Of a stretch of DNA of 64,000 nucleotides, positions 35,910 through 62,129 are shown one piece after another (position 1 is the stretch's first letter; each line of letters begins with the position of its first letter). The position numbers and the translations under genes were made by a program. The DNA comes from Thunnus maccoyii (lineage: Eukaryota; Chordata; Actinopteri; Scombriformes; Scombridae): assembly GCF_910596095.1 (NCBI RefSeq), contig NC_056540.1, forward strand, positions 17,386,501-17,450,500, written 5' to 3'. The notes under the pieces were generated by a model, which saw nothing but the letters and a program-made list of their open reading frames with translations, ran no database searches and was not told where the DNA came from.

Positions 35910-37858
35910 TCAAATGGGATTAGGGCCTATGTCTGGCTCCTGCTGATCATCCATGTAGTAGGGATCCCCTTGGTGGACTCTGTGATTGTGCACCCTGAGG
36001 TTCCCTCTGTGGGCAAACCTCTTCCCACACTCTGTGCAAGCAAACGGCCTCTTCCCCATGTGAACGTCCCGTTGGTGGGCTCTCAAGTTCCCGCTGCGTG
36101 CAAAACGTTTACCGCACTGTGCGCAGCCAAAAGGCCGCTCACCTGTGTGCGTGCGAGTGTGAACAGTGAGCTCAGAGGGAGTGAGGAAGCTCTTGTCACA
36201 GAACTGACAGGGATGCAGTCTGACTCCTGTGTGGCGTAAAAGGTGTCTGCGCTGATGGGAGGGGTAGGTGAAACACTTGGTGCAGTACGGGCAGGTGTAA
36301 GGTCGTCCGTTCCCTCCGCTGGGAGCTGGTGGGTGGCTGAGAGTGTTTGCATGTCGTAGCGTGAGCGACTGTGAATTGGACTGCGGTCGGAGAGGGTCTC
36401 TGTTGCCAAAAGTTGCGACCCGCCTTGTGTGATTGATGGGGCCTCTCCCTCCCCTATCATCTCTGGGTCTCCATGGTGACTCACCAGATGGAGCCTGTGG
36501 CTGATCCTGTTGAGCCTCCCTTTGCGCCACCCCCTGATCCTGCACTGAGTTCTGGTTGGCGCTCTGGTTCTCAGGCTCCTGGTCCAGGAAAGGGAAAGAA
36601 CTATCCTCATCTTCGTTGCTGGTTTCGTCAGAGCCAAAGCCAGGTCGGAAGCAGGGTGTGTCTGTGCCGGTGCTGCTGCTGGCTGGACCAGAACAGCTGG
36701 TGCCATCTGCCTGCAAGTTCTCTAGACCGGGCACCCCACCTCTGGTGGCGTCTAACCCCGGTAACCACTCCCCAGGCTGAGCTAGGCTTGGGTCAGGCCT
36801 TGGCGAGCAGCGTCCGCTCTGGGAGATGGAGAGAAAAGGAGTGGAAGCTTGATCCTGGAGGGGTCGGTGGTCTGCACTTCGACTGCCTTGATCCCAGTGA
36901 GACACTGCAGACAAATTGGGGGGAAAAAAACAACTGATGCACTTTTATACTCAAAGAGTTTCAAGGTCATCTGGCTACAGCTTTGAAAAAGCTAAACAGT
37001 CAGTAACTGGACAAAGAATGTGCTGACTTCTTACATTTGGCCTTTGCTTGTGTGGCAGCCAGAGGATCTATCTGCCTCTGGTGCTCAGCAACAAGGCTTC
37101 CCTCTGGGGCTTGGACTGCGACAGACTCCATAGTAGGTCGTGATCCAGCATGCTGTGGAGAATAACAGGTCAGACAGGGCATGGTGCAAATGTAAGTACA
37201 TTTCTGGTTGTTCAGAAATTACAAATGCTTTATGTTTCATTGATTGGACAGCCAACATTTGTATTTGTGGAGAGAGTCTGACCTCATGTTTTATTGAATC
37301 TCCATCTTGGCCTGTGCCCTCCTCTTTTAGCCCACTGAGGCTGTGACTGAGCCCTGCTGCTGGGTCTGAATGAGGAGACACATCCTTTCCTGTGCAAGAA
37401 AAGTGTAGGTCAGTCTGAGTAATGCCTCTAGTGCTACTTCTGTAGTGAATATAGGTAAGAACAAAAATGGGTTTGGATACGAGATTATCCTGAACATTTA
37501 CTGAGTTCATATTATGCTTGAGTCTTTCCACAATGATAATAAACAAGATAAATAAAGTCAGTGCCCAAAGCTGTGTATTACCTGATCCTGTCAGGGTCTT
37601 CTGCCTCAAGCTGTCCTCTCTGTCTCCTATTGACATCTCCCCTTCCTCGCTCCCTCCACCCTTCGCCCTTTGCCTCCTCTCCACTTTCTCCAGCCTGCCT
37701 CTGAGGATGGAGATCTCCTGCGTTTTCTGCGCCAGCTCCGCCTGCTGCTCACACAGGCTGCTCTCAAAAATCTTGGCGATCTCGCACACGGCGGCTGCCA
37801 GCAGCGAGTCCATGACGGTGGCCAGCTGAGCGTGGAAAGCACCCCTCACAGACTCCAT
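35910..37858 (-). CDS. C2H2 zinc-finger protein (gene A), 4 fingers
   Basis: Probable nuclear DNA-binding protein; I cannot name the orthologue. Coding exons in gene order are 37858-37582, 37389-37283, 37152-37035 and 36904-35910 with GT-AG borders and intron phases 1, 0, 1, giving 498 residues. Exon 1 encodes a helical, likely coiled-coil module (MESVRGAFHAQLATVMDSLL, then EIAKIFESSL, then a Glu/Arg-rich heptad-like stretch). Exon 2 ends in IKHE, a SUMO-type consensus. Exon 4 has an acidic, Gln/Pro-rich linker and four C-terminal C2H2 fingers with HTGERPF-type linkers. Start choice: the Met at 37858 aligns with the starts of the two related genes. An in-frame Met at 38005 exists, and I treat that upstream part as untranslated. 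The true 5' limit of exon 2 is uncertain. Confidence 0.85.
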
Positions 37859-38358
37859 CGTCCTTTGTTTCAGGGACGATGTTTTAATGTCACCTACCAA
37901 TTGACACCGCTGTTTTCTTCGATGGTTGGCCGCCAGAGGCAGTTGAGGGACGATGTGGCTGCTACCACTGTACACTCGTCTGCTCTGGCATCCCTGAACT
38001 GCCATCAGATTGTGCCATGCTAACTAGCTACGCCATTTAACTTTTACATTCCTTGTGGTTGAATAACTCTTGATAATTAACTTGTGCGACAGCTTTTTTT
38101 AAACGACCTCACTGAAGTTAAGGTGTCAATCTGCTCTATCTTGTAAGGTTTCGGTACTGTTACATTACATACAGTGATGACAAGCTATGCGGTGTAATGC
38201 AGAGATTCAGTTTGCTTATTACAACGATATAAACACCATCAATTTGTAGCTAGCAACGAGAAAACAGCCATAATGTTAGTGTTTTAGTGCGTGCTAGCTA
38301 ATGTTACCTATGGCTAACGTGTAAACAAGGCAGCCAACGAAGCGTAACCTGTACTGAC

Positions 38359-38590
38359 CCGCAGCAGCTCGTACTAAAGCCGGCTGTAAATGCAGTAAAG
38401 ACGATCAAATAAGCACATCAGCAACGACTCGTCACTGTCGATGGACATTTATCAATATTGGCTTTCATCAAATCCAAAGGAAACACTCCGCACACTTGCA
38501 AATCACATTCAGGGATGCGGCGACCAGTCGGCCAGCTAGCAGGTTGGTGGTATCCGTGATGTGACAGTCATGGCAAATCTCGCGAGAACA
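38359..38590 (-). promoter_or_regulatory. Promoter and non-coding exon 1 of zinc-finger gene A
   Basis: The minus strand has a donor-like CTGCGG, then gtcagt, ending a probable untranslated exon at 38359. The palindrome TCTCGCGAGA lies at 38578-38587. That 10-mer is the motif bound by BANP at CpG-rich promoters of essential vertebrate genes. Transcription probably starts near 38560; that is inference. Confidence 0.5.
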
Positions 38591-38727
38591 CAGCTGAAGC
38601 CACTGCAGAGTGTAGAATCACAAAATACAGTCTCGTACATTTTAAGAAAGTAGGTAATACTACAACTTCACACATTACTGGAATTAAAGAAAGAAACTCT
38701 ATGCAAGACACAGTGTAAAATATGGAT

Positions 38728-38733
38728 TTTATT
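38728..38733 (-). terminator. Candidate poly(A) signal of zinc-finger gene B
   Basis: TTTATT on the plus strand, AATAAA on minus, giving gene B a 3' UTR of about 1.3 kb. It lies about 150 bp upstream of the gene A promoter motif, so the two genes are tightly packed head to tail. Confidence 0.45.
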
Positions 38734-40063
38734 GGGGTAATGATCTAACAACACCACTGACACTTTTTATGATGACAAGAGAACAGTCGTAGTAAACCTT
38801 TTCCATCATGTCCATGTGGATCAATGAAAAACAATACAACCCACACAAAGTTTGGAACATTTTAAAACAGTAAAATACAGTACATTCACATTTGTTCTGA
38901 ACTCAAGCATCAAATAACATAACTTTGAATGTAACAAGTCCTAAAAAATTGTAATGTTTTCAGATATCCTTCAACTAACAGTAGGTGGATTAACAGGATA
39001 ACCAATTACATTTTCCTCCAGCAAATACAGTCATCAGGACATCTCAAAGCCATGTCCAGAAGTCTTGACACTACAAGCAAGCACATCTCCAGACACCACA
39101 GGGTGAGCTGAAAGAGTGTCTGAGTGAGTTTCTCAACTTGTGCTAAAACTTGTAGAGTTCATATCAAACAGCACCGACTGTGAATAAGGCGAACAAACAC
39201 ATTCATACATATAACTGAACATTAACTTTCCTTAAATACAAAAATAAGATTAGTTGATTTGTTTATATACTGTATACCACAAGGCAGCAAAGATTTTTCA
39301 ACAGGTAGAGATTTTGCTATACACTTTCTACCGAGGTAGCTTTTCTTTTGGTGTGGTTTTTTTTGGGGCCAATATCATTGTCAAAGAGCAGGTTTGCTGT
39401 AAGGCAATCTTGGATTTACATAGTTTTTGCATCACTTTAATGTACTGTGGTGCTAACTGTTCTTTTTTTTTCTTGGGATATATGTTTTCATCATTTTAAG
39501 GGATTTTTTTTAGATATGTATCTTTATCCTTTCTGTTATTGCACTGCTGTGGGCTGGAAAGAAGAGCATTTTGTTTTTTATGTATGCAGGTACACAAGAA
39601 AATTAAAATAAACTAAGTCTTGAATATGATGAAGTACCCCGATTTGCCAGGTATTTCACAAAGTTGCACATTCCCATATTTTTTTTCTAACAATGCTTTC
39701 TTCATTGAATTTTCCTGGAAAATATTAGTTTACCACAATATGTGTTTATTTTTATCCATTGCCCACCCCATACACATCATTCTTCATCCAATCTGTGAAA
39801 AGATCCTTAACACTTTTAAGGAAATGTCTGGGTAAAACTTTAAAACAAGTTACATGTGATGATGGTGGAACAAGAATACTTGGTGGTGGACCCCTCAGTA
39901 CATGGACAGACACACTCATGTTTTACCTCTGTGCGTAAAAGTGTGATGTAAAACGAGTCATTCAAAAACCCGTAGCATTCAGGAAAACCCATCCATCAAC
40001 CCGGAAGAGCATAAATAACAACATCTAATATTTTTAGACAGGAGATGCTAACTGCATACCAGC
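38734..40063 (-). other. 3' UTR of zinc-finger gene B
   Basis: AT-rich sequence following the gene B stop codon. Contains poly-T runs around 39460-39510 and no convincing coding frame or RNA gene. Confidence 0.45.
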
Positions 40064-43000
40064 TTACTTGTGGAAACGTTGAATATGGTTCTTGAGGCGT
40101 CCCTCGGTGAGGAAGCCTTTCCCACAATCCTGGCAGATATTAGGCCAGTCCCTGTGAAAATCAAACACATGCCTATTTAACTCCCTTGGTGTGGGGAATA
40201 TCTTCCCACATTCCCGACACGGGATCTTTTTCAGAGAAATACGGCATCTTTTTCTGTGTTTGTATAGCTGCGCACTGGAATTAAATTTTTTAGGGCACTT
40301 CTCACATTTGATGGGCTTCTCTCCTGTGTGGATGCGATAGTGTTCAATCAACAAGCCTTTGCTTTTCACAAGCTTCAGACACGTTAAGCAGCTGTAACCA
40401 TTGGGGCGCCGTGTGCCCATTGTTTGCCATTTTTTCCTCTTGTCTGAACTGTGTTCTTTCTGAACATTGTTAAAGTTAGCTGCTCCGCTTGTGTCTTTGC
40501 TGGAAGCAATCAAACTCTCTCCGTTTTCTTCAGGCTCCTCTAAAGGCTTGGTCCATCCGAGGTCTCCGTTTGTCTCTTTTGATGTAATTTGATCTTTGTG
40601 CCTTCTCGATGACGCACTGCAGCTGTCAGAGGAAGGTGTGCTTTCCTTCCTAACAGTTTCCTGTTTTTTGCCCGGCGTGGACAGTTTTTCTTGGTCACAT
40701 GACTGAGATTCTTTTGCAAACGATTTCTTGAGTTTTCGGCAAGATATTTTATGATTAATGAGAGCGCTTGGAAAAGGGAACTCTTTTTTGCATGCTCGGC
40801 ATTTCTTGTGTGACCGTATATGTACATTTAGGCCAAACTCTGTATCAAACACCTTACAGCAAAACTTACATGTGTACATTTTTCCATCATTTTGCACCGT
40901 CTCTTTTTGTTTAGACACAGACTCAGTTGCTGTGTTTTTTCTTCCCTCGTTTTTGCTCTTTGTAACATTTTCTTGCTCTTTTCCTGTTAAATTTCGCCCT
41001 CTTCTTCTTTGACCTGTGGGGACTGCTGAGCCAGAATATTCCTGTTTGATCTCTCGGAGCAAACGTTTCATGTCATTTCTTACTAGTGATCGTCTGGCGG
41101 TTGTTGTTGGTGAGATTTTGTCCTGAGTGGGTTTGTCGCTCTCCTTTAATGAGGAACCTGTGGGAGAAAATATCGCAAAAAATTAAAATGTAACCCTGAG
41201 AAAAAGGGAAAAAGCCATATTTAATTCTATAATACTATTACTACTAGGAATTCTCATTTGAAGGGTCAGTTCACCAAAATTAAAAAAAACCTTTCTCACT
41301 TTCGCCACCTGGTATCTAGACAATTTTGGTTGTATTTGGCCACATTATTAAATATTCATCCCTGGGTTTTCTGTTGTTACCCGAATACAACGGAGGAGAA
41401 TAAAATTTGTAGTGCTCACAGCATTGAAAAATGACATTTAATGAATTTAACTGCAACACATCTTTTCAGAATCATTGTCCTTATGAGAGTGCGGATATAC
41501 CTGTAGTTCAACCTTTTACCTGACAAGTTGACAAAATCAGCATTTTTATTTACATAGAGAGCCTTAGAAATCATAAAATAATCGTGTTAATGTGTGTATG
41601 TAAGTGAATGTAAATGTGGATGTGAGAAAGGAAATACATTCCTCATTCTGACGATCATTTACAGCACAGAACAATAAATGAAATTAAGAATTAAACCAAC
41701 CTCTCTTGGATTTCCTGCCTGCCTTTGTTGGCTGGTGAGACTCTATGTCATGGTTGACCACCTAAAATAAAAATGTTCTTGGTTATATCTCCAATGATTT
41801 GCAATGCAAATTTCAGAAAACAGTTTCATGCAGAGCTGTGTCAGCATACACGGATATTACGGAGATGAACTCTCTGGATGTTCTGAGTCGTTCAATCATT
41901 TTGCCAAAATGTGAAAAAGTGGATGTAGAAGCACTTTTTAAACACTTTACACCTGAAGAATACACAATAAATCCTGTAAGGGCAAATCAGTGCTTCAGCT
42001 CAATTCCTGCAAACTTTTGTACCTGAGCCTCTGCACATCTGCCAAATACCTCCACAAGTGTCAGAAGAAAAAAAAAGTGCCCCCCCCCTCCCCAAAGCAC
42101 AACCCTCTTAAGAGATTTTGTCACCCCATGGAAAGTGTTTGTTTTGAGGCCTAACTGACTGCCTGTGTTGGTCTGAAATGTTCACAAACACATTAACACC
42201 TACCTGATCCCCATGGAGAGTTGGGTTAAATTTTTATCAAAAGATGGACATGTGTAAAAATTTCACCCGATTTCATCAGTTAGCAGAATATCCCAGTGAG
42301 CTCTGAGAGGATCTTCACATTGCTTTGAAGAAACTACGGTCATGAAGTATTGAAGTTTCTCTTCTTTTTTAGGTTTTATCATAATCTGACATGACACAGG
42401 GATATCTTGTCCACTGGCAGCACTGATATATTCAGAGTGCCATATAATGTTTCCAGCCTACCATTAAGGATGCGCATTCATTAAAATGAAGCATGTGGGC
42501 TTCAGTGGTCGGTTATCAAATTTGCAACTGCCCGTCTCAGCAATTATCCTATCCTATGCACACCATTGCTCCCCCTCCCTCTGAACCTCTTGTGTTACTT
42601 ATCACTGCACCACTGTAATGCTAAGCCATCCAAACATCCGCTCCTCCATCACACACCTCTTTCTTGATGATCGGAACGTGCCACAGTGGGATGGACAGCC
42701 GTCGCAGTCTTACGCTGGGACACACGCCATCGTTTTGCTTGGTCAAGTTCTCGTAGCCCAGAGGGGCACACCAGTCATCAGGTACTGCACAAACCCAAAA
42801 AAACATGGGTGATCTTCAACTGGTGATGCACTAAAAAACATCTGGCTACACCAGTGATGCTTTAGGTGTGTCCTAGTAAAGGGTGAGGGTACTTGTGCAT
42901 CACTTATTTTGTGTAGTGTATGCACATGTACTTAAACTATTTGTAAATATTAGTTTTCACTATGACGCTTTTCGGTTTGTTTCTGTTTGTCAGTTTAATT

Positions 43001-43495
43001 CAGAATAATTCAATGTTCAGTGTAACGTCCAGGGGGAATGAATACTAAAATGGCCTTAGAAGCATCGCCTGTTAAGGTAATAATTCTCTCTGTAATGACA
43101 GCCGTCTAAAAACAGTGACTATAGTCAAACATAAAATGTCTTTCACAGAAGAAAGCAAGTTATTTCAATCATTTAAACACTATACCTTCAAAATCAACCT
43201 CAGGATCATGAGACGTTTGTTTGGAGGCGTTCTCAGGCTCTCTTTGTGTTTCAACAACTTGAATTTGATCCTTCTCCGCTCTTGTGTGACAGTCATTTTG
43301 ACTTTCTTTCAGCTTGAGCTCTGCTTTCTGTAACTTCATTTTAAGTTGAAGTATCTCTTCTCCTTTCTGTGCCAGCTCCATTTGATGGTCGTGTAGCGTG
43401 TTCTCAAAGATCTTCGCTATCTCTATCATCGCTGTCCTCAGGACTGAGTCCATGGCCACCTGGGCCCTGAAATCTCTTGTCCGATAGTCTGTCAT
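40064..43495 (-). CDS. C2H2 zinc-finger protein (gene B), 6 divergent fingers
   Basis: Probable nuclear protein of the same family as the genes at 35910-37858 and 50935-55903; orthologue not recognised. Coding exons in gene order: 43495-43186, 42784-42657, 41761-41701, 41157-40064; phases 1, 0, 1; 530 residues. Exon 1 gives the shared helical module (MTDYRTRD, then AMDSVLRTAMIEIAKIFENT, then a Lys/Glu-rich coiled coil). Exon 2 encodes a compact DDWCAPLGYE block and ends in IIKKE. Exon 4 holds a Lys/Ser-rich linker between two finger groups: two fingers near the N-terminal end of the exon and four at the C-terminus. Two of the six end in Cys instead of the second His (C2HC), and only one HTGEKP linker is present. 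A likely 5' UTR acceptor lies at 43578/43579. Confidence 0.85.
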
Positions 43496-44719
43496 CTTTG
43501 AAGGCAACTGCTTACAGATGTCCTCCCTTGTAAAGTCTTGTGTGATGCTGTTCTGGTCCTCAGAAAGTCACTGACCCCCTAAAAAGAGAGATAAGAGACT
43601 AAATTAATGACAGCTATAAAACAGCAACCTTGGTGGTTCCTAGGTATACACTCAATGGCCACTTTATCATGTATGGGGTGGACAAAATATTTATGTTTCG
43701 TGAAATAAGGTCACTTTTAGCAGGTTTGCTGAAATGGGCATCTAACACCAAATCAACTGGGAGAAGGACGATCTCCCTTCAAAGTACCACACTCAACTTC
43801 TAATGGCCTTCAAGTATGCAATACCTCTGGAAGTCAAGGATGTACTACTACTATGTAAACAAAAAACAGAAAGTTCAACGGACTGTCAATTTATTAATTT
43901 TACCAGGAAAATTTCACATCCATAAATTCAACTTCTCGCCCATCGTTTGAACTTTTCATGATTGAATACAGACAGTATTTTGAGTCTATCCAACTTATAA
44001 ACAATAAGACATATGCACATATGCGTTAGTATGCTCCAAGAATGTTTTAAAGAAATCTGATTTTATAGCCTGCCTTTTCTGTTAAGTTATTTTTCTCTTT
44101 TTTATAATTATTACTTTTACTTTTTGTCCTGTTACAATGTTGACTGTATCAACAAACTGAAAGAGAAGTCATGTCCTGTTATGTTATCTTTATTTCAATA
44201 TTATGTTGTTCAGTATGAATTGTTTTCTGTTATTGTATTAATGTCACACATATTGTAACTTAAGTGATGCTTTCTATAAATAAAGTAATGGCGGGAGTAT
44301 GCAATATCCAGGTAGAGATGATACAGTTTCCATCATGTGAATGTGGACCACAATGTTTTATCTTGTGGAGTAGACACACACACACATTCAACAGTTACAT
44401 CACATAGCGTTTAGCTGCTATAACATGACAAAAGTCAGGGATGAACTTCTCTGATAATGTTGGTCCACTGGTTAAGAATGAGTAGTAGTTTTTATAAGAT
44501 CACTCATCTCTTTAAAACCACATCACCGTTAGCTAACGTTAGCCAACTTATGATACTGACTGTGCGTTTAAATAGATCAGCTTTCGCTTTCCACGTAAGA
44601 ACAGCAGACCAAAAATTAACTTTAAATATCAGGAGCTTGGTAATGACTGACAACAGGCAGACCATTTAACTACATGTGGAGGGCAACTGATCATCTAACG
44701 TTATGCAAAAAATACTGAC

Positions 44720-45095
44720 CGCTCTGCAGAAGGATGAACGCCAGTTACTGTATGAGATGATAACTCCGTTTGTAACCGAGGAAGGTCCTAATGCATGAAA
44801 TGTAAGCTGTGGCGCCCGCTGACAACAAAATATTACATTAGCAGCATTTGTTTCTCATGAGGTATCCTTAACTAACGTGTAAAAGTCACACTGTCAAACA
44901 TAATTCGGCCATTTTTACTAGGATACCCAGGAGAGAAGAATAACGTTTTTATTCCCACCCGCATTCTACGAAGACCCGCCCCTACTCTACCTCTGATTGG
45001 CTCTTTTTACGCTAACCAAATAAGAACTGGAAGCTAATTGGTCGTTCCATTTAACGTCACTGCGCTAGCTACACCTCCGCCATTTTGGACTGAAA
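44720..45095 (-). promoter_or_regulatory. Promoter region of zinc-finger gene B
   Basis: On the minus strand, in order: a YY1-type AAAATGGCGG (45077-45086), CCAAT motifs near 45030 and 44997, a GGGGCGGG box near 44985, then a likely untranslated exon ending in a GCG, then gtcagt, donor near 44719. This is typical of a housekeeping-type promoter without a TATA box. Motif calls are direct; start site is inferred. Confidence 0.5.
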
Positions 45096-45099
45096 GCGA

Positions 45100-47960
45100 C
45101 TTTTTTTTTCCTCTTTATTGAACATTATGAACATTCAGACATTCAGCTGGTGGACATGGCACGGACATTATTGTACAGTTCAATATTCCAATTGGTGGAA
45201 AAAAGTAGATATCAATCAAATGAGTTAACAAATTTAATTAAAAAAAATAAGTTATCTAAACATAATATAAATAAACAATAACACCGCAATCAGGTTTTAC
45301 AGAAAAAAAATCTTTAAATATAACAGTGTCCGTTCATTTTTTTGTTCGTCATAATGTATCATGGGTTAATGTATCTATGTACAAATTGAATTCAACCAGA
45401 AAAATATTAAGATTTTGGAGGGATTTTTGGAAATTTACCAACTACAAGACTTGTCATGTAACTCAAAGGCTTATTAATACATTTATCATTACAGGTTAAT
45501 TACATTGTTATTATATTCATACATATATTGCATTCAAACGCAGCAACAAGCCTGAAATCTTTTCAATTATGGCAGTTGTTGAGGGGTTAATTTGTTTATT
45601 TGTTTATTTGATTTCTTCCTTTAACCTAATTAACAGCACAGTAATATTGCAAGAGAAACAACAGTACAGGGAGTATTGGGGGTAAAACACAAGCAGAAAT
45701 AAAATTGTACAATGTAAAAGATATATATTACAGAAATTAAAAGAAAAAAATAAATAAACATAACTTTTTAAAAAAAATGAATTAGCAATATTGAAAACCA
45801 ACAATTAATTAATCAAAATATGATTACATGCCAACCATTTTTCTTCTTCTGTTTTTAAAAAAAAAAAAAAGCGCAGGCTGATTTCTTAAATTACTGTCAC
45901 ATTAGCTGCTGTAACAGGGCAGTTCTCTCTTTTTTCCAATAAACAATAATCCAATGTTTGTGACTTTCAAATATTGTACACGAACCCCTCTATAAACTAT
46001 TGTGGTAAATATTCTCTTTTTAAGGTGGATGAATTTTACTTCTTCCTTAAAAAAAAGCGTTTCCTCTTTCTTTTCACAACTGATGGACAAAGACCTCTAT
46101 TTTTCTTCAGATATTACAACCTGGCCTGGGACAAGCTGAACACTAAATATGTCAGGATACAGCATTGCAGTTACATGGTAGCATTATCTTAATTATTTAG
46201 ACCAGGATTACAAACTGTTTTAATAATTTTAATAAACGGATGGTGTGCTCATTTATGTCACAAATTAAAACAATGTGTGATTTACTAATAAGCAGTCAGT
46301 AATTCACACAATTAAAGCATTTAGATTGAAAAACTATTTAGGTTTTACCTTACTTACACATACAGGTCATTGTTACCGCAAACTCCTACATAGTTCAAAC
46401 TTCCAAAAACCAAAAGAAAGTAGGCAAGTGGGGTCAATGGTTTGTACAGTCACTACAGAAGCAGGAAACAAACAAACAAACAAAAAATGTAGCCACAAAC
46501 ACAAACCTTACCCAGTTATAGCAGAGAAGCTCAGGCCCGCTGAGCAGCACTCTGTGCTCATGTAGAGGGTCAGAGAAGGACAATAGTAGAAAGAACACTG
46601 GTGTCTTCGGTCATGTATTTTAGGCTAAATTAATACAAGATATTCCTTCATTTGCCAAATGATGGAAACCTACAGTTTCATATTGCATCTAAAACAACAC
46701 TGGGAGCCCCACATAAGCTTTAATTTGCAATTTGAAAAGGCCATCGGACCGTAGCTCCCACTAACAGCCACTTCAGCAAGAGATATTAATGCATGCGTGT
46801 AATTTGTAGCAGGGAAAGTGCTTGTTATTGATTTCACACAGTTGTGTGTTAATCTGATGCCTGGTCTTGCTCAGCAACACTATTGTTTGATGTTTATTTG
46901 AGTTACAGAATTTGATTAACAGAGATAGATAGTGTACAGAAATACATGCTGCATTCGCTGACTCCTCAGGTTCAGTGGTGGATATGTGGTAGATTATTTC
47001 ATCTCCAACAATATAATGTCCTGTCTCATGTTAGTCATTTTCAAGTGAAAATTAAACTAAAAGTTTTTTTATCAGGATATGTTGTTATATTGCTTATTAT
47101 CCCATCCCTACCGTGAGCGTTCACTGTATATAAACACATGCGCCAGCTGTTAAAACAAACTGTACAATATAGGACTGTTAACACTGAAACACATAACACT
47201 GGAAGTATAAAATGTGTATCTCGTATGCATACTTACTGTATATGATGTGTTTACAAAAATAACAGTATATGTGCAGTTCACTGAAGAACAAAATTATGGC
47301 GTCCCCTCAAGAAATCAACGAGGCAAATAAATCTGAACAGTATGTGAACACTTTCCACTTTGTCTACAGATACCTGACAAACCTGAGTTTCATAATATCA
47401 GCATACACTTGGCTCACTGTGGTCAAACAAAAATCAATAAACTTTCACTTGGGACAGACATAGTTTCAAGCAGGGTGTGCAGTAGATAATTGACAGCAGT
47501 ACAGTAGATAATTACTTCAATTGAGTGCGTCAATGCAGTATTCACTGGGCTGTTTTCTCATTGCCTCCGATTTCAAACTGTAAAACATGGCTGATATTAG
47601 GGGGAAAAAAGTGTTTTTATTTCTTCTAAACTAGCCACAAAAACTGTTTAAATTTGGGCTTTTTTGTCTGAGAATATTTCTTCATTTTATTGTTTTAGCT
47701 TATTTTAAATAGCTGTTCACAAAGTTCATAAGCTGCAAGGAGGTGGCTTAAACAAAGCCTTTGCCTTTCCTACTACGGTCAAAATGTCTGCTGTGAAAAG
47801 ACACTATTTATGTTATTAATTACACATCTGCTTGTCTGCAGTTAAAAAGATACATTTTTTCTCACTGGGTGTTTTCCAGGTTTGAATCTAATACCCAAAG
47901 CTTGTAAAAAAAAGTGTGTTTGTGAGAATAAACAATCAAGGAAAACAGAGATTCATTTAC
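45100..47960. other. AT-rich spacer between zinc-finger gene B and mif
   Basis: No supportable gene. Contains poly-A/T runs and a possible retroposon tail at about 45590-45780. The remaining sequence looks unique and non-coding. Confidence 0.5.
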
Positions 47961-47976
47961 ATTCTACAAGATTTGC

Positions 47977-47982
47977 TTTATT
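47977..47982 (-). terminator. Candidate mif poly(A) signal
   Basis: TTTATT on the plus strand (AATAAA on minus), about 185 bp past the mif stop codon, a plausible 3' UTR length for this short gene. Confidence 0.6.
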
Positions 47983-48164
47983 GTAACAAGAAAGGATCAG
48001 TGCAAAGCTTTAGGGTCTAGATAAGTGCGTTTAGGAGAGTCGTACAGTATGTTAAGAGCGGATCACCGAGTGTCTCTACTTCTCCATTCTGCCGGTTTTA
48101 ACTACGTTCATTCATGTCGTAAAATACTGGAATGAGCTTCGGTTTCAGCGTGTTGACCTCCATC

Positions 48165-49609
48165 TCAGCCAAATGTAGTGTTGTTCCAGGCCACGTTGGC
48201 TGCATCCATGTCCACGAAGTTAACATAAATCCTGAAATAGACACAGAGAGAAATAGGTTAATGAGATTGGACATTAACAGTGAGCGAGGTATATGAGATA
48301 CAAGGGTATCTGAGTCTGTATTTCTGGCACCATCAATTGCTTATCAGATTCAGTGCAGTGATTGTACTGATTGTTGTGTGTGTGTGTGTTATTTACCTGT
48401 CAGCAGAGATGCCCAGGTGTTTGTTGAGCATCCCGCACAGTAGTTTTGAGTATTGCTTGTTGTGAGCACCGCTGATCTTGCCAATACTGTGGAGGGAGCA
48501 GAGTGCGCAGGGGTCTCCCTTTCCTCCAAACATCATCATTTGGTCAGGGTTGATATGCACAGCAATGTACTGTGTTCACAAGACAGACACACAAAATTGA
48601 TGTCAGGCAACAACACTGGCTGGATCCGCTGAGCCCCAATGTCACATTGTAGTATCCACATTGCATTAAAAAGGCCGGCACATACTAAATATAGACTACA
48701 GTTAGAGTTGTAGTGAGGATTTTTGAACTACTGAAGTCATGAATCCAAAATATCCCATTGCAGCCCCACCCATACATGATATTTCATATGATTCTGGCAA
48801 AGAAATAATGATTCCCTTTCATAAAACAAACACATTTAAAGATATTTGGTCTAAGAAATGTCAGATTTAGCCTCCAACATTAATTAACAGAATGTAAACT
48901 GCTCATTAAGATCCCCAAAGTCCCAAAGGCAATAGCCTCGATCAGTGGCGGCTATCGACACACATATATTATATATAAGTCTGTATTCTAGTTCATTTAA
49001 TGCTATACTTTTATGCACATGCTAGTTAAAGCCATGCCTATTAATGTTATGAAGCGACATAAAGATCACTAATACAAATTGAACATTTTAATGGCAAAGT
49101 ATTTACATTATATTTTCACAGCTATAGGCCTTTGGGCCTTCTGAAAGGATGTTGATCTGAGCCCTTTCAAAAACATCCCAGGTTATGATAGATTTGCTTT
49201 TAACTTGTTGGTTTAGTGAACTGACTCCACTAATCAATCATCTACCCATGCTGACTCAGTGCAGTCAGTGGTGAGTTTGCGTTGCACAAGAGTCGTATTC
49301 ATCCGGTAGAGAGGCTGATACTGTATCTACTGTTAGCTACAGTTACACAGAAATCAGGCTTCAAGTGCTGATCTACACTCAACAGAGAAGTTAAATCCAC
49401 CAAGATGATCCAGATAGGTAATAATGAGGGCGGATAGTCCCCTCAGTTTCACAGTGAGACCCAGGTGAGATCATGCAGGAAATAGCGTGGCCCGGACCCA
49501 CCTGTGCAGGTTTGCCCATAGCTTTGGCGAGCTCCTCGGTGGCCTCAGACAGCAGAGCCGCCGGTACGTCGCTTTTGGCCACGTTAGTGTTCACCACGAA
49601 CATCGGCAT
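48165..49609 (-). CDS. mif: Macrophage migration inhibitory factor
   Basis: MIF is a small cytokine-like trimeric protein with keto-enol tautomerase activity and CD74 receptor binding in mammals. Three coding exons: 49609-49502 (108 bases), 48569-48397 (173) and 48231-48165 (67 with stop), giving 115 residues, the exact family length; the first two exon sizes match those I recall for human MIF. Visible features are the N-terminal [10 protein letters not shown] with the catalytic Pro2 exposed after Met removal, [14 protein letters not shown], the CALC motif of the redox site, and the C-terminal VAWNNTTFG. There is no signal peptide, as expected, since MIF is secreted by a non-classical route. 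It lies between two zinc-finger paralogues, transcribed away from the plus-strand one. Nothing appears broken. Confidence 0.98.
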
Positions 49610-50260
49610 GATTATTCTTTGAAGTGCTCTCTTTCTGCTCCTCGGAAAGCTGTGAACGCTGCATAAAACTGTCCAGCAGGCGGAAGAATGAAGCAAAGAC
49701 CCGTTTACCTCTTTCAGAGAATCACGTGGCAAAAGGACCACAGCGCCCCCCTCAGTCTGGAGGGTACAACAACAACCAAGTGGAGGCTACAGTAGGTATT
49801 TTTCTGGTATTATTTTCTTATTTCTTAGAAAAATCAATCATCAAAGCTTTACGAAGTTTGGTCTAATTTTCTTGTATATAAAGGAAGAAATAAATATTCC
49901 TACAATTTGTTTTTGTTGTTGTTTTTAAGGAAAATGTCTTACTCCATTTATTGAGACAAGGTGCCCCCTTATTTTATTTTATTTTTTAAATTTGTCTCCA
50001 CAGTTAACTGTTTTTTTCTTACTGTACTTATAGCTAATTTAACTTGTAGCTGATTTATTATGTGTTGTTTTCCTCTGTTTGATCTGTTAATTATTTCTCA
50101 TTGGTTTACTGTAATAAGTGGTCTTGTGTTTCAGTATGTTTGTATATATTGATTAAAAAAAACTTAAATTACAACAAAAATTTAAAATAAAAACAATCAT
50201 CACCTCTACTGTTGAGATCACACAGAAGCAGAAAGTGATGTGTGAAATAATCCCGAGTTT
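49610..50260. other. Spacer between mif and zinc-finger gene C
   Basis: Divergent intergenic region. The mif 5' UTR and promoter are expected in the first 150 bp (a GC-richer patch with a CAGCGCCCCCCTCA string near 49741); the rest is AT-rich and featureless. Confidence 0.45.
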
Positions 50261-50304
50261 TTTCCAGGGTGCGGCTGCTCTTGAGTGTAGGGTAATTACG
50301 GTAC

Positions 50305-50316
50305 TGCGCATGCGCA
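50305..50316. promoter_or_regulatory. NRF1 site in the zinc-finger gene C promoter
   Basis: TGCGCATGCGCA is the perfect palindromic NRF1 motif. It lies just upstream of a GC-rich stretch ending in a donor-like AACG, then gtacgt, at 50520/50521, the probable untranslated exon 1 of the zinc-finger gene that follows. Confidence 0.55.
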
Positions 50317-50934
50317 CTTTCCTCAAGCATCAGTAAGCAGAGCTGAAGGAGGCGAGGAGGAAACAGAGACAGAGAGAGAGAGGGGAGAAGTTGGATGGTA
50401 CTTTCCTTTGTCGCCGTGCCTCTGATCTTACGATTAACGAACAGCATTATCCGTGATCCGTGAAATCACACGGTGTGTCGCCGGTTAACGTCTACTCCTC
50501 CTGATTTCACCTAACAAACGGTACGTATGGAAAGCTAAATTAGCCAGGCTGCTAACACGATCACTTTCCAACGTTACGGAGGGGCTGGTGACCCTCTTCT
50601 ACTTCAGTATTATTGTGTGTCGACCAGTATTACAAGTTTACTAGCAGGTCTTGTTTTTAGTATATATCAAACTGCAATACCGCCTTTGTACTTCTTAATA
50701 AACCGACAATATATACTGTTTACTAAATGATAACACAGATGTTTATTAGCGATAAATAAAGTATTTCTGTGACTGATATTGATGACTAGGACCAGATTTA
50801 GCCATCAGATCGATAAGACAATGCGAAACTTTTGTGATCCCAGTGGGAAAAACTTGTTAAATGTTTACATGGTTGTGACGTGCTGGCATGATAAACTGTT
50901 ATTGATCCGTCCTCAGGTCAAACCTGTGGCCAGG

Positions 50935-51773
50935 ATGATGGAGGAATCGGTGAGCACGTTTGAGACGCATCTGACGGCTGTCATGGACAGTCTGATCCGA
51001 GCCTCGGTGTGTGAGATCACTAAACTCTTCCAGGAGACGGTGAACGACTACCTGGTGGAGCTGTCCCTCAACAGGAAGGAGAACGAGGCTCTCAAACTGA
51101 GGCTGAGGCTCACGGAGAGCAAGCTGAGGACCGAGCGAGTGTACGGGCTGGGCTGGGCTGCCCACCGCCGCAACGCTGGCCTGGCGGCGGCGGAGGAAGG
51201 GCCCGGAGGGCGGCAGAAACGAAAAGTTGTGGGGGCCCGTAAGTATTTCTGGCGTTTCCTCTCAGACAAGGAGCCTACGTCACATTTAGTTTGTGTCAGG
51301 TATGAAGCTGTCATTACTATTAAGTGGCACCTTGCTAAAATGCGTGATTGTGTTGTTTAATGTGAGAAACAGGGCTCTTGCTATGCAGTCAGGGCTTATG
51401 AGAAGACGCACTTGTTTTGTTGGAAACCATCTGGCAAGAGCTGATCTCTCCCTCCCTCCCTCCTCCCTTCCTCCTCCCTTCCTCCTCCGCCTCCTCTTCA
51501 TGTTCGCTCCCTCTGTCCTTCACCTCCCCCTCTCCTCTCTCTCTCTCCGCTGCATTCTGTCCCTCCCACTCCTCTGTGCTTTTGCACACTCTGTCTCTCT
51601 CCCTCCCTGCCTGCCTTGCTCCTCTCCCTCCACTTCTCTCTGTCTCTCTCCAACTCCACCTCCTCCCCTTCCCGCTCCTCTCTCCTTCACGCCCTCTCCT
51701 CCTCCCTGCCTCTCTCCCTGCCCCCACCTCCTCCAACGCTATTCTCCTGCTCTGTTCTCTCCTTCATCACGTT

Positions 51774-51843
<70 letters not shown>

Positions 51844-54800
51844 CCCCCTTCCTCTCCTCCCCCTTTCCCCACCTCCTTCACTCCACTCCTCTCCCGCTCC
51901 TCTCCACTGCCACCATAATTACACACTCCCTCTCCACTTCCACTTCTCTCTCTGTCTGTGTCTCTCTCTCTCTCCTCTTTCCACCTCTTCCCCCCCCCCC
52001 ACCACCCTTCTGTCTCCTTCAACATGTTCTCCCATTCCTCCTCCTCCTCCTCTCTCCCCTGCGGCCCCTGCCAACTCCACTTCTCTCTCTCTCCTCTCCT
52101 CCCTGTCACGTGTTTTTCTCTCCTTCGCTCCCTCTCGTCTGTCATTCTACGCCCCCTCTCTCCTCACTCATTCATCATGCTCACTCCTCCTCCTCCTCCT
52201 CCTCCTCCTCACCATGCTCCTCTTCCTCTCTCCCTTCCCCCAACCTCCCTTCTACTCCTGTTCCCCTCTGCCTCTCAAACCCCCTCCTCCTCTTCCTCAT
52301 CTCCCACTTCTCCACCCTCTTTTCTTCTTCATCTCTCGCTCCTGGCCCTCCAATCATCTCCTCCCACTTATCTCACTCCCCCTCATGTTTCATTCTCTCT
52401 CCTTCCTGTCTCCCCTCTCTCCTGCCCCCCTCCTCCTCACCTCACTTTCTCCTTCCTCTCTCACCTCCCTCCCACCCTTCCTTCATCTTCCTCTCTTCTC
52501 CCCAGGAGGCAAGTCAAAGAGGGGCCCGGCAGCAGCCTATGGCAAAGGCTGGCCTGGAGGTGTGTGGGAGGAAGGAGGAGGTGGCGGTGGCGGCGGCTGT
52601 GGTGGGGGAGGAGGAGGAGGAGGAGGAGGAGGAAGTGGAGGAGCTGTGGGGATGGTAGCAGGAGCAGGAGGAAGAGGGGGGAAGGAGGCCAGGGAGATGT
52701 ACCTCATCCAGTTCCCCGGGGGCGAAGAGGATGAGGGAGGGATGGTGGAGGACGATGAAGGGGAGGGCAGCCTCAGCGGTGAGGGGGAGGAGACGGCCAA
52801 CATCAAAGAGGAGGTGAGGGAGACGTGCTTTCTCAGAGGAGGAGGAGTAGGAGGAGAAAGTGGCACAGCATCTCTGCATCACTCAGCAGCTCCATATAGA
52901 ATGAGAAAGAACGCAGACAGAAAAAGAGAGAGATAACACAGTGAGACAGAGTTTTGCTTGTGTTTTTCAGTCATCAAATCACTGCAGAGATGTAGTGGAT
53001 AAAGGGAACGTTATTGATTTGATATTTAGCTTCCCTGAAGAGCCCTTTGAGTAGAGCTCTTCACATCACAAGTGCAGCAAGCTTTCAGGTGGAAATACTA
53101 TTAGAGGTGAAAAGCGGCTTGCTGTTCCACCACATGGCCAAATGGCAGGAGCACAAATCCACTCTTCACTTTTCTTATGCGTTTGAATACTCAACGCATG
53201 CAGAATGTCTCCCTGTCAAGTCATTTCAAAGTGTTTTTGGTGGCTAATAAAATAGCTGTAAAGAATTATAAGCACAGAATCCCAACAGGACAATGATATA
53301 GCTTTTTCTCATGTACTTTGTAAACATATATTGAGGTAAGGTAATGATGTGTGGCTGTGATGAGGGTTGCATGTAAGTTAACAGAAAAGTTTTACAAAAC
53401 TAATCAAATCCACCTTTGAAATTGCAGATCCTGCTTTACAAACAGTCCAGGATACATGCACAGCACAGGGGTAGAAAACACTTCGCCACACTGTAATGAT
53501 ATCATATATATGGATGTTTTCAGTATTTTGAAATGAAGCTGCTTGCTGGAAACCGGTCAAAATACAATTTTAGAGTAAATCTGTTTCCAGGACACGTCTG
53601 TCTCAGCCTGTCGTCTATGGCTGGCTAACATGATGTGTGGAATTCCAGTGAGAAAATGGCAGCTAGTAGCAATGATAATGCTCACGGAGACTGTATACAA
53701 AGATATTGCCGCAGATAGTGAGAAATTAACTGTGAGTGTCCCAAAAGATCAACAGGCAGCACAGGTTAAAAGCACAGAAGTCCTTAGTATAAAGAAACAT
53801 TAGCACATGTAGTATGAAATTCCTGCGTTTTGCCTGTTGCACAAGTTCAGAGCACAGAACCTCTCTCATTCTGGATATTAATAACGTTGGCATGTATGAA
53901 AACCTTTCATGTCTCCTGAAAGTGTACCAGACACTATAAATATGCCAGATGTGTTATGTTGTGCAAAAACTCATAACATACTGAGACAATACAGATTTTG
54001 AAGTATTATTTATCAGCCACACAGGATCATAAAAAGAGACTCTGCACACCTGTTTGATTTTATTCTTCTGGGAAAAATTCTAAGTGTAATAACGTGATGC
54101 ATTTTCCACTCAAAGCCGTCAGTCTGCACCTTTATCAGCTGTCACCAAGTCGCATACTGAAACTCTAAACGCATGTCAAACTGATCATTTAAGCATTGAT
54201 CGCAGAGCCAAATGATTCATTTAACAGCCATAAACACACAAGAACAGTGTGAGCTGTCTTACCTTAGAACAAAGTGTTTTTTCCCTCACCAAGTTCTGTG
54301 CAAAACTATCCGTCACCTTCCAGTAATTTGTATCATAATAAAAGGCTCTGACAAGATCGCTAGAGTTAATAGCCAATTCTGCACTCTAACAAGCAAGTTT
54401 CCTTCTTGAAATAATGAACATTTCCTACTCGTTACTGTTGTGATTCATGCAGTTCAAGTCATAAAAACAACTTCAAGTTGATCTACCCTAAAGCTCTCGT
54501 TCATTTTGGTTTGTTTTCTACCCCTATCATGTGAGCTCACTGATGACGTTGCTTGGAAACCCATCTATAATCCTCTGTGCTTCTTTGTGCAGTTTTCTCA
54601 AACAGAGGGCTATCAACCTGCCTCTCTCAAGCTAATCAAGGAGGCTTTGAAGATGGACCTGCCCAACCAGAACCTCCACACTGGCTCCAGAGCCCAAAGC
54701 GAAGGTAAGGAGCCCTGAACACACTGATTGAGGGAGGGGAAGTTAGTAAAATGTTCAAAGAGCAATAGTTTGAAAGAAAGTGGGAACGGTTGCTCACGTC

Positions 54801-55903
54801 AGCTCTCCCTCTCTCCTCCACACGTCTCCTCCTCTCTCTGTATCTTCTCAGGAGACCTGTCAGATCATCCCCCAACCCTTCATCCAGGAGAGAGAGATGA
54901 GGAGGAGGACTGGGAGGTGGGCTCAGCGGAGCCATCAGAGGGAGGCATGACCATGGATGAGCTGAGGGGTTTGGAGTCCGCGCTGAGGGCTGAGAGAGGT
55001 CGTGAGCAGGGCGCCATGACGGCCTCCCAGCCTGTCAGCCCTGACTCAGAGGCGGCACCAGGTAGCGAGATCAGCTTGGCTCCCAAGTACATTGGTCTTG
55101 ATGGAATGGAGCAAGACGAAGAGCTGGAGCCTCAGCCGCCCACCCTGCAGAGAGAAGACCATATAGGGCAAAGCAGGGTGAAAGACCGTGTGCGAGCCGC
55201 AGGGTTCGGGGTAGCAGAGCTGAAGTCAGGCTGGTCGAAGAAGTTGAGAGAGGGCGACTCAACTGCGGTCATGACCGGAGAGGATTTGTTGGAGCAGGGA
55301 GAGTCCGAGCACCTGCCTCACCTGTCTGCTCCAGGGAGTGTCGGGGAGAGCGGAGGAGAAGAGGAGGCTGGTGGAGACCTGCTTCACTTCTGCCCACAGT
55401 GTGGAGGAGGCTTCAACACAGAGGCTGAGATGGAGGAGCATCCCTGTCCACTAGGTGGCGCCCTTTTACAGAGCAGCGGAGCAGAGGAGAGTCTTTTCCC
55501 TTGCGCCCACTGCGGCAACACGTTCAGCCACGCCTGGGCGCTTAAGAACCACGAGTGCGCCTGTGCTGCTGAGCGACCGCACTGTTGCGAAATCTGCGGG
55601 AAGCGCTTTACACACTCTCGCTCCCTGGAACGCCATCATCTGGTGCACACAGGCGAGAGACCGCATCGGTGCCCGCAGTGTGGGCGCAGCTTCAGTCGTC
55701 TTGGCAACTTGGAACGTCACCAGCGGATCCACACGGGTGAACGCCCGTACGGGTGCGAGGCGTGCGGAAAACGTTTCAGTCGTGTGGAGTATTTAAAAAG
55801 ACACCAACTCATACACAACAGTGAAAAGGCGACACTCCAGTGCTCCAACTGTGGAACGGGTTTCAGTGATGTGGAGCAACTGAAAAGCCACCAGTGTTTT
55901 TAG
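50935..55903 (+). CDS. C2H2 zinc-finger protein (gene C), 6 fingers
   Basis: Third member of the local family; orthologue not recognised. Coding exons: 50935-51238 (exon from acceptor at 50917), 52506-52813, 54593-54704, 54852-55903; phases 1, 0, 1; 591 residues. Exon 1 has the shared module ([20 protein letters not shown], then [10 protein letters not shown], then a coiled coil). Exon 2 encodes a poly-Gly run, an acidic stretch and a terminal NIKEE. Exon 4 begins with an acidic linker and ends in six zinc fingers: three canonical in the middle (HTGERPH and HTGERPY linkers) and degenerate ones on both sides. The last finger stops at HQCF, with Cys where the second His should be. Intron 1 is 1.27 kb and strongly pyrimidine-rich. 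The gene converges on the nuclease array. Confidence 0.85.
51430..52505 (+). repeat. Long pyrimidine-rich intronic tract
   Basis: Over 1 kb in which the plus strand is nearly all C and T (CTC, TCC and CCT runs), broken by a (CA)n array at 51775-51836. It fills most of intron 1 of gene C up to the acceptor at 52505. It gives long spurious Ser/Pro/Leu-rich open frames. Confidence 0.85.
51775..51836. repeat. (CA)n microsatellite
   Basis: About 30 CA units inside the pyrimidine-rich intron of zinc-finger gene C; the longest CA array in the window. Confidence 0.95.
52814..54592 (+). other. Intron 2 of zinc-finger gene C
   Basis: 1.8 kb of AT-rich intronic sequence between the exon ending in IKEE and the exon starting FSQTEGYQ. 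No repeat or gene recognised. Confidence 0.55.
55448..55459 (+). promoter_or_regulatory. CTCF-core match inside a coding exon
   Basis: CCACTAGGTGGC fits the CTCF core CCASYAGRKGGC exactly. It lies in the zinc-finger exon of gene C, between two degenerate fingers. Binding is inferred. Confidence 0.3.
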
Positions 55904-56638: not shown

Positions 56639-58519
56639 TCATTCTTTGTTCTTACAGTGCCCCTTAAACAGACTGACAGGCATTCTTAGCCGTGTGATTA
56701 GGATACCCTCTAGGGTCTCCAGGGACATCCGCCTCACATCATAGCCCTGCTCCTCAGCATTCGCATCGGGATCCATTGGCACAATTTCCTCTCCACTGTT
56801 AGGGTCATTTCTCCCGACTGCAGCATATGTGGGGAAAAATGGTTTCATGTACCCAGGAAGGTCAGATCTGTAAGAAGGGCAGCAGTAAGCTGACCACATG
56901 TACTCAGGAACAGACACCCTCTTATTGATCCGGTGAGCTCCAGACCTATAAGGCATGGTCCCGGTGATCACGTACATCTTCCCTCTGCAGAAGGCCTTTC
57001 TTCTTAGCACCTCCCTCTCCAGTGAATTCCAGGTGCCTGCGTTGGAGCCCTTCCGCTGAGGGACAATGTTTGTCAAGGTGAAGGTGGCCGTACGGTCATT
57101 CATTGTCCTCTGGTGCATGCTGGGATTGAGATGGCCTCTGGTGTAGCCAGAGTCTTTGTAGTCCGCAAACACCGCCTGGCTCACCTTCACTTTCCGGTAG
57201 AGGGGTTGTGGGATCAGAAAAGGCTTCATATTTGGATCGGCTGTGCGAGACTCCAGCTTAATGACAGAGAGAGAGGACAAGATATCACTTTTTTAGAGTA
57301 TGTAGAGTGTTTTGCTGCTTATTCATCCTTATTGTTGAGTTGAACTGTGAGTGTTTGTCTGCTGTGATGTGTGACTGACTCAGAGATAAAATGTAAAATG
57401 CTATTTTTTTCTGAGAAAAGAATAACATGTATGACAGCAGAGTTTGAGACAGGCTGCTTCCGCTTCAATGTGTTTGCAAAAACTTGCACGAACTCACACA
57501 TTGACCACAATGAGACTAAAAGTATTGAGCAGGAACTGCAAGAGTTCTCTGTCACGTCCACGATCACCACCTAAACACTTGTTATTTTAAGATCTGATCT
57601 CAGTTAGTATATAACCTACCAAACAAAACACAGTTTATATAACCTACCTGCTGCTACCTGCCCATTTTGCGCTATTACATGTTGTATATTTTGTATGTTT
57701 TAAATGTTGTATACGTCGTGTATTTATTTTGCTGCACTTTGGGAGAAGTCAAAGACAAATTTCCACTGAGGTGGACAATAAACTCAATCAATCAATCAAT
57801 CAAACACAAAAAAAACTAGTAGATCTTCATGCAAATGCTGTGTTTTCATTTATCCATGAGATTTTCCAATTCATGTGGACACACTTAACTCCACAATAGT
57901 AGAACAATAGAAAAATTTGCAGTGAAACTTAAGAATGTGGGTTGCAGAATCTCCATATCAACAAAAAGTGTTGTTCAAATTCTCTCACCTGTAATCTCAG
58001 TATGTAAATTAACACATTATGTCTGACACAGCCCCACTGTGCTGTCAGTCTTTAAAGGAAATGGCTGATCATTCAATGCTCATAAGAGCTTTGCTTTACT
58101 TTTCCTTTGTCAGGACACTAGTTTTTCCCTATAAATCTATATAATTACAGAATATAATCATGTTCAAACACGTCATATCTGACAAAGTCTAATTCAACAG
58201 AGTTGTTGCACCACATCGTGTTACTTACCTGTGGTTCATACATCCAGCTGACATCGGGCCGGTTGCCATCTGCAGGACTGAGTTTGTACGCAGAGTATAA
58301 AGGTGCACGATGCTGACGCTGATACAGGCTGGCAAAGCGGTACCGGTTTTTGTAGCGCTGGCATATTGGATCATATCCAGCTGCAGTGATACCCTGTGGT
58401 GGAGTTCTCTTATAGAAGAAATCAAGACACTGGGAGAAGTCTTTGCTGATCTCTCCAATGGCCAGTCCAGCAAACCAGAGTGGAAGAAGAAGCAGAGCTC
58501 CCATAGAGAATTGCAGCAT
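56639..58519 (-). CDS. ENDOD1-like secreted endonuclease, copy 1
   Basis: Member of the DNA/RNA non-specific endonuclease (beta-beta-alpha metal) family of the ENDOD1 type. Two coding exons: 58519-58229 (97 codons) and 57256-56639 (205 codons plus stop), giving 302 residues; the junction is in phase 0. Residues 1-22 form a signal peptide (MLQFSMGALLLLPLW, then AGLAIGE), so it is likely secreted or vesicular. The active-site segment TRGHLNPSMHQ places the catalytic His at about residue 139, with a metal-binding Asn at about 160 in FTLTNIVPQ. WSAYCCPS and PFFPTYAAVGRND follow. A 5' non-coding exon ending at 58646 (donor gtaag) and an acceptor at 58528/58529 are inferred. The intron is 972 bp. 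It appears intact. Confidence 0.88.
57690..57800. repeat. Retroposon tail-like repeat in the intron of nuclease copy 1
   Basis: Reads TTTATTTTGCTGCACTTTGG, then AAGACAAATTTCCACTG and GTGGACAATAAACTC, ending in (AATC)n. I recall this type of end from teleost LINE-derived repeats. It is absent from the matching intron of copy 2. Confidence 0.4.
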
Positions 58520-58645
58520 CTTCCTTTCCTGCACAACAGATAAGCAGGACAGATGTGTATTATACACCTGTGCTGAAGAAAGAGATGTTCATTAGCAGAC
58601 AATTAACTCAGACTTTGCTCAAGAACTCCTCTAAGACAAACTTAC

Positions 58646-60618: not shown

Positions 60619-62129
60619 TTACTGACACTGTCCATCAAACAGACTGATGGACATGGCCAGCCTTTGTGCGAGGATACTCTCCAGGGTCTCTAAAGACATC
60701 CGCCTCACATCATAGCCCCGCACACAGGCCTTCGCCCTGGGATTAACTGGCACAATCTCCTCTCCGCTGTTGCGGTCATTTCTCCCCACTGCTGCGTATG
60801 TGGGGAAAAATGGCTGCATAGACTCAGGAAGGTTGTCATTGTAAGATGGGCAGCAGTAAGCAGACCACATGTACTCAGGAACAGACACCCTCTTATTGAT
60901 CCAGTGAGCTCCAGACTCATAAGGCAGGACCCCAGTGATCACGTACATAGGCCCTCTGCAGAAGGCCTTGAATTTTCTTAACATATCATTTTCCAGTGAA
61001 TTCCAGGGGCCAGAGTTGGAGCCTGCCCACTGAGGAACAATGTTTGTGAGGGTGAAGGTGGCCACACGGTCTTCTTTTGTCTTCTGGTGCATGCTGGGAT
61101 TGAGATGGCCTTTGGTGTAGGTGGAGTACTTATAGTCCTGAAGCACTGCCTGGCTCTCAATCACATTCTGGTCGGGGGGGATGAAGAAAGATTTCATCTC
61201 CGGGCTGGCACGGGAAAATGCCAACTTAATAACCAAGAGAGAAGGAGATGTCACTTTTTGGGTGTATTTATACTTTGTGAATGGGTGTGTGACTGACCCA
61301 CTCATGTAGTTTGTGAAATAAAAATGAAAAATAAACTGATGAAATGCAAATTCCCTTTTCTCTGTAATGATAATATGTGTGATAGCATTGCTCTTCTTAC
61401 AGTTAGTAAGAAGCCACTTCTGCTTCTGTTTAAAGTTAAAGGCAAAAACCTCATATGCACCACACCAGCTACAATGACACTTCAATTAAATATCACTCCG
61501 TGTTACATCTGGTCTTGTTGCCTTAACACATAAACACAAATGTTCATTAGATCTACATGAGAATGTAGAATTTAGAACAAATAAAAGGATATTTTTGTGA
61601 AATCTTGTGAGTTACTACATTTAACTCTACATTTAAACAATAATGCATTGATAGAAAAACAGTGGACCAAAGGTAGAGATAATTTATTGTAGAATTACCA
61701 CAATCAAGAAAGAGCTTTGTCAGGACACTAGTTTTTCCCTATAAATCTATATAATTACAGAATATAATCATGTTTAAACACATCATATCTGACAAAGTCT
61801 AATTCAACAGAGTTGTTGCACCACATCGTGTTACTTACCTGTGGTTCATACATCCCGCTGACATCGGGTCGTTTGCCATCTGCAGGACTGAGTATGTACG
61901 CAGAGTATAAAGGTGCACGATGCTGACGCTGATACAGGCTGGCAAAGCGGTACTGGTTTTTGTAGCGCTGGCATATTGGCTGATACACCTCTGCAGTGAT
62001 ACCCTGTGGTGGAGTTCTGTTGTAGAAGAAATCAAGACACTGGGAGAAGTTTTTGCTGATCTCTCCGATGGCCAGTCCACCAAACCAGAGTGGAAGAAGA
62101 AGCAGAGCTCCCATAGAGAATTGCAGCAT
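60619..62129 (-). CDS. ENDOD1-like secreted endonuclease, copy 2
   Basis: Tandem paralogue of the gene at 56639-58519. Coding exons are 62129-61839 (97 codons) and 61224-60619 (201 codons plus stop), giving 298 residues; the intron is 614 bp. It has the same signal peptide (one change, AGLA to GGLA). The active site reads TKGHLNPSMHQ (His at about 137, Lys in place of the preceding Arg), with Asn at about 158 in FTLTNIVPQ and the same WSAYCCPS and PFFPTYAAVGRND blocks. Exon 1 differs from copy 1 at about 10 of 97 residues; exon 2 is much more diverged, and the C-terminus ends DGQCQ instead of GHCKNKE. The catalytic core looks intact. Confidence 0.88.

Follow-up and report, generated by a model that had tools for sequence, protein, structure and literature searches.

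A predicted fish zinc-finger gene family with a common N-terminal module and SUMO-type motifs ahead of the fingers

Three zinc-finger genes in the window

This analysis concerns a 64,000-nucleotide stretch of the Thunnus maccoyii genome (the window; positions 17,386,501-17,450,500 of contig C8, in a genome of 782 Mb and 54 contigs) and, within it, three predicted zinc-finger genes that we refer to as A, B and C. All three were rebuilt from the sequence. Each model has four coding exons and intron phases 1-0-1, and GT-AG borders are present at all nine introns. Exon 1 encodes an N-terminal module common to the three genes, and exon 2 ends with I-K-x-E, a SUMO-type motif. The rebuilt models reproduce the exon number, the phases and the terminal IKHE, IKKE and IKEE of exon 2 at the coordinates proposed in the first-pass annotation of this DNA. 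PF00096 matches proteins A, B and C with E-values of 1.8e-18, 5.3e-17 and 6.4e-22, respectively, identifying all three as tandem C2H2 proteins; the only Pfam families scoring above their own cut-offs are zinc-finger families.

Gene A lies on the minus strand and codes for a predicted protein of 498 residues. Its exon 1 (37582-37858) holds the module, homologous to those of B and C, and ends at a phase-1 donor. Exon 2 (37283-37389, phase 1 to 0) terminates in IKHE (37283-37294) at the junction with exon 3 (37035-37152, phase 0 to 1), while exon 4 (35910-36904) supplies the linker and four C2H2 fingers. Intron 1 (37390-37581) is 192 nt long and open in frame, so that the reading frame would survive its retention. 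Gene B, also on the minus strand (530 residues predicted), has the module and a phase-1 donor in exon 1 (43186-43495), IKKE (42657-42668) at the end of exon 2 (42657-42784, phase 1 to 0), again at the exon 2/3 junction, and an exon 3 at 41701-41761 (phase 0 to 1). Its exon 4 (40064-41157) encodes C2H2/C2HC-type fingers and a linker containing another SUMO-type motif, IKQE at residue 203; a further tetrapeptide of this kind, IKCE, occurs at a finger. The donors of exon 2 in gene A (gtcaga) and of exon 3 in gene B (gttggt) look weak.

Gene C is on the plus strand (591 residues predicted). Exon 1 (50935-51238) again encodes the module and ends at a phase-1 donor, and the glycine-rich exon 2 (52506-52813, phase 1 to 0) closes with IKEE (52802-52813) at the exon 2/3 junction. 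Exon 3 (54593-54704, phase 0 to 1) and exon 4 (54852-55903), with the linker and C2H2 fingers, complete the model. The end of intron 1 (51439-52506, ~1.07 kb), directly ahead of the glycine-rich exon, is 84% C or T and includes a long CA repeat.

The N-terminal module and its family

The exon 1 modules of the three genes align well above chance, with z-scores of 20.1 (A-B), 17.1 (A-C) and 14.6 (B-C), none of 2,000 shuffles reaching the observed value in any pair. The common module proposed earlier can thus be regarded as homologous in A, B and C. The 'AxxMDS' string given for it holds less generally, being exact in gene A only; in gene B two residues are missing ahead of MDS. Outside exon 1 the genes have diverged, as the first-pass annotation had suggested: exon 2, exon 3 and the first 150 residues of exon 4 give no alignment among them (z from -1.1 to 1.7), and the finger contact residues differ.

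Judged from the sequence, the module is about 60 residues long and consists of an amphipathic segment, roughly F-x2-QL-x2-[IV]M-x2-L-x3-AV-x-E-[IT]-x-K, followed by a charged tail. The hydrophobic moment of the first segment peaks at 90-120 degrees in all three proteins, which is helix-like. No Pfam family covers the module at its own cut-off; the Fez1 family, a candidate for the tail, was rejected because its matches (E 0.023 in A, 0.0063 in B) fall below the family cut-off. Searches of the PDB with the module returned no convincing relative (best E 0.37 in one search and 0.028, to a ribosomal protein, in another); viral contigs and genome contigs were scanned as well and yielded no relative, and no description of the module turned up in the accessible parts of the literature searched.

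The module is by contrast frequent in its own genome. The gene A module scored at least 30 candidates, all at E up to 10, and a second and a third query gave at least 28 and at least 24, respectively; those with E of about 1 or higher are doubtful. Since the search scores only the best candidates, these are minimum counts for what is a large family. The matches fall largely at the same places whichever query is used, on contigs C2, C8, C12, C18 and C20. We extended 20 of the 27 loci outside the window (numbered with the prefix L) to 9.9 kb each and left the other seven unextended. A clear module start is present in 19 of the 20 extended stretches, L050 being doubtful, and in 15 of the 20 zinc fingers follow within the stretch, so that the family combines module and fingers. 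The module start is also clear in L024 and L025; it was not seen in L026 and L027, in a view that left minus-strand loci unreversed. L028-L030 carry a more distant form of the module, LTAAAEEIF; the module tree takes in two of them, L028 and L029, which split off with full support. A zinc-finger family with this N-terminal module, predicted earlier from the window alone, is thus found across the genome.

One relative on C20 (L034) departs from the usual form. At 392-619 of the oriented stretch its module passes into a CA-repeat frame (HTHTHT), with the usual charged tail missing. This copy may have decayed, though ten finger matches follow.

SUMO-type motifs at the exon junction and in the linkers

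The I-K-x-E that closes exon 2 stands out in sequences that otherwise do not align. When the residues of exons 2 and 3 were shuffled, none of 200,000 trials put three identical columns into a span of four around the junction, and 157 of 200,000 reached two. A composition-based estimate, in which the probability of the final E was raised to 0.2 because the donor site favours it, gives a product of 1.2e-10 over the three genes, a figure not corrected for the choice of motif. The shuffles rule out chance as the origin of the common motif.

We then asked how far the exon plan extends, scanning 23 loci (the three window genes and the 20 extended stretches) for an exon entered in phase 1 and left in phase 0, 38-420 nt long, with a pyrimidine-rich acceptor and [IV]KxE before GT; exons of any other make-up would be missed. 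Such an exon is present in five loci, namely A, B, C, L038 and L039. The last two form a pair on C2, with an exon of 167 nt ending in VKKE, and are 96% identical over a 76-residue query; being near-copies, they provide one independent confirmation. The same scan found nothing in 213,539 bases of antisense strand, and eleven control patterns matched 0 to 3 loci each, the matches of the [IV].KE control in L038, L039 and gene B being the same VKKE and IKKE sites. Scan matches in L041 and L048 were rejected as junctions, since they lie inside an open finger exon at weak GT sites, and VKEE|GTAAAC in L048 was not counted, the acceptor distance being at odds with entry in phase 1. Three of the 18 remaining stretches (L035, L042, L044) contain no finger exon; these genes may extend beyond the stretch and be incompletely covered.

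Mapped on the module tree, the exon 2 trait requires two changes, compared with a mean of 4.7 after shuffling (1 of 500 shuffles as low), a result that the near-copies help. For the acceptor before the first finger, phase 1 was assigned in 10 of the 12 loci with a single best acceptor, while three further loci tie. By this sequence evidence, most other finger-bearing relatives look like an exon 1 joined at phase 1 directly to a finger exon. The view that phases 1-0-1 and an exon-2-terminal I-K-x-E are traits of the whole family was abandoned; found in 5 of 23 loci, they mark one branch of it.

L038 itself has a candidate exon 3 (phase 0 to 1), which together with the next phase-1 acceptor completes the 1-0-1 series. 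A very long further coding stretch follows, with the fingers much farther downstream, and the later exons are unlike those of the window genes. When L038 is joined to L051, a finger-bearing frame at ~13804-15400 shows repeated SPRR/SPKK-type segments ahead of the fingers and two more motifs, IKRE and IKKE.

In the relatives the motif recurs at another place, the linker encoded by the finger exon. Across 13 such linkers [IV]KxE occurs seven times, spread over six genes, where 0.57 occurrences are expected; none of 20,000 shuffles reached this number. Eight control patterns, [IV]KxD and [IV]RxE among them, are not enriched in the same linkers (4,000 shuffles each). The broader [IVLM]KxE occurs 7 times against 1.13 expected (2 of 10,000 shuffles). 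L036 and L041 are sisters in the module tree; with L041 removed and a fourteenth relative (inside L049) added, five [IV]KxE remain against 0.55 expected (2 of 10,000 shuffles). The first motif lies 31-65 residues into the finger exon in five of the six genes, and the IKQE of gene B is at a similar distance, its exon 4 starting at residue 167. In this count L045 was taken from its open frame with the acceptor not resolved, and the acceptors of L034 and L049 were picked among ties. It leaves out the five loci whose stretch shows no finger exon (L035, L038, L039, L042 and L044), L037, for want of a usable phase-1 acceptor, and L050, whose module match is weak; the finger frame of L050 has VKKE and IKIE.

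Given this enrichment, the SUMO-type motif is plausibly under selection at a shifting position. The fixed place at the end of exon 2 is a branch trait, and the presence of such a motif in the linker appears to be a wider tendency of the family. The earlier idea that the family keeps a SUMO-type motif is thus upheld in part: [IV]KxE is enriched in linkers beyond A-C, but the strict I-K-x-E is less so, and some relatives have none.

Possible function and competing explanations

What might such genes do? In the mechanism we favour, the module would self-associate, the fingers would select DNA targets, and the linker lysine would accept SUMO and thereby recruit corepressors, so that, in a lineage lacking KRAB zinc fingers, the genes would repress in a SUMO-dependent manner. 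With moderate confidence, we regard A, B and C as ancient paralogues from a C2H2 zinc-finger family whose hallmark is the unnamed module; they carry a SUMO-type linker motif and would act in this way. More tentative is the proposal that they represent a distinct class of fish zinc-finger repressors, with a self-associating module tied to a SUMO-recruiting linker motif that was kept while it moved between exons. Of the picture drawn in the first-pass annotation, the module family, the diverged linkers and fingers and, in part, the SUMO-type motif are borne out, whereas the dimerising helix and the KRAB-like role are putative; the exon 2 motif as a family trait has to be given up.

By analogy, the functional parallel we trust most is the DUF3669 domain of human DUF3669-KRAB proteins, in which oligomerisation goes together with a linker lysine that repression requires. 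At the N-terminus of ZNF746 and ZNF777, DUF3669 is reported to oligomerise and to repress weakly, and replacing the SUMO acceptor lysine in the ZNF746 linker (K189R) strongly reduces or abolishes repression (PMC6923878). The likeness lies in a SUMO-type lysine between the N-terminal domain and the fingers, A, B and C all having the consensus motif there. They differ in that proteins A-C have no Pfam match to DUF3669, KRAB or SCAN at E up to 1, although the search filters drop most matches above about 0.1, and in that the DUF3669-KRAB group is placed in amniote evolution (PMC6923878). A KRAB search of the tuna genome gave 0 matches, but so did its controls, and it carries no weight. With the KRAB and SCAN families in general, the window genes share the arrangement of an N-terminal effector or oligomerisation module ahead of the finger exon.

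The first-pass annotation had set FiNZ, a domain of fish zinc-finger genes, apart from the present module except for an IKEE string. The difference is borne out by the published description: FiNZ genes, too, encode zinc-finger proteins of fish and share a conserved segment at the N-terminus, but that segment has 28 residues, lies in one exon before the finger exon and is confined to cyprinids (PMC10547256), whereas the window genes have a module of ~60 residues and four coding exons. Ray-finned fish are reported to be without KRAB-ZNF and TRIM28, and 405 zebrafish and 364 Takifugu poly-zinc-finger proteins are listed with 0 KRAB and 0 SCAN domains (PMC2604467). FiNZ and KRAB-like proteins have been proposed as substitutes in fish (PMC10547256, PMC11603059, PMC9101882). 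Knockdown of FiNZ reportedly derepresses transposable elements, the mechanism being called unanswered by the authors (PMC10547256). The actinopterygian KRAB-like proteins of Carotti et al. resemble the window genes in joining an N-terminal domain to fingers in ray-finned fish (PMC9101882, PMC11603059).

Several observations weigh against the SUMO-dependent repressor reading. In A, B and C alike, the hydrophobic moment of the module tail has its peak at 155 rather than at about 100 degrees, and the tail's heptads reach 70-78% hydrophobic residues at a/d only in the best of seven registers, so that a coiled coil is weakly founded. I-K-x-E was widened to [IV]KxE only after VKxE had been noticed in relatives; the strict form occurs twice in the 13 linkers against 0.17 expected (132 of 10,000 shuffles), [LM]KxE does not occur in them, and [IV]KxE is missing from seven of the 13 and from the fourteenth relative. 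Resolution in the module tree is poor: the five loci with the exon 2 trait come together as one clade in only 1% of bootstrap trees. For the ZNF746 system, the authors state that sumoylation was not formally demonstrated (PMC6923878). Moreover, linkers of C2H2 proteins at large may be enriched in [IV]KxE, whether or not they go with the module. Such proteins are frequent SUMO targets and the count took in module-bearing genes only; we nevertheless consider this explanation somewhat unlikely.

Another possibility is that the end of exon 2 was inherited from an ancestral gene and kept mostly by splice-site constraint, with no SUMO function and with the module a plain helix. Exon 2 ends in GAG|GT in A, B and C alike, and for A and B the nearest rows of the module tree by path are the other four junction-motif loci. 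For C, though, L024 and L045, both lacking the trait, lie closer than B. Donor constraint accounts for the final E and not for I/V-K, the [IV]KxE of the relatives sits within the finger exon at a distance from every donor proposed, and neither K-to-R nor E-to-D variants are enriched. We regard this explanation as unlikely. The same grade applies to a third view, in which the module is no dimeriser and would bind a corepressor of the TRIM33 type, a role proposed for the KRAB-like domain of actinopterygians, although the linker motif may still repress. Co-immunoprecipitation of KRAB-like and FiNZ proteins is reported as consistent with a possible TRIM33 interaction (PMC11603059), and the reported lack of KRAB-ZNF and TRIM28 in ray-finned fish fits as well; the lack of a Pfam KRAB match in the three proteins, within the filter limit given above, argues against it.

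If the proposal of a distinct repressor class is true, KRAB-less ray-finned fish would have a KRAB-independent way to give zinc-finger genes a repressor function. Together, the Pfam-less module and the enriched SUMO-type motif are a concrete candidate for the effector used by a subset of fish zinc-finger genes.

The window also contains other coding features. A wolframin exon with the WC-rich and WCOB domains lies at 2282-3853, and a MIF-family exon (49391-49786, minus strand) is located between genes B and C. Two neighbouring minus-strand stretches (56639-58588 and 60619-62198) have one Endonuclease_NS exon each and share a 996-base block at 96.6% identity and a 571-base block at 81%.

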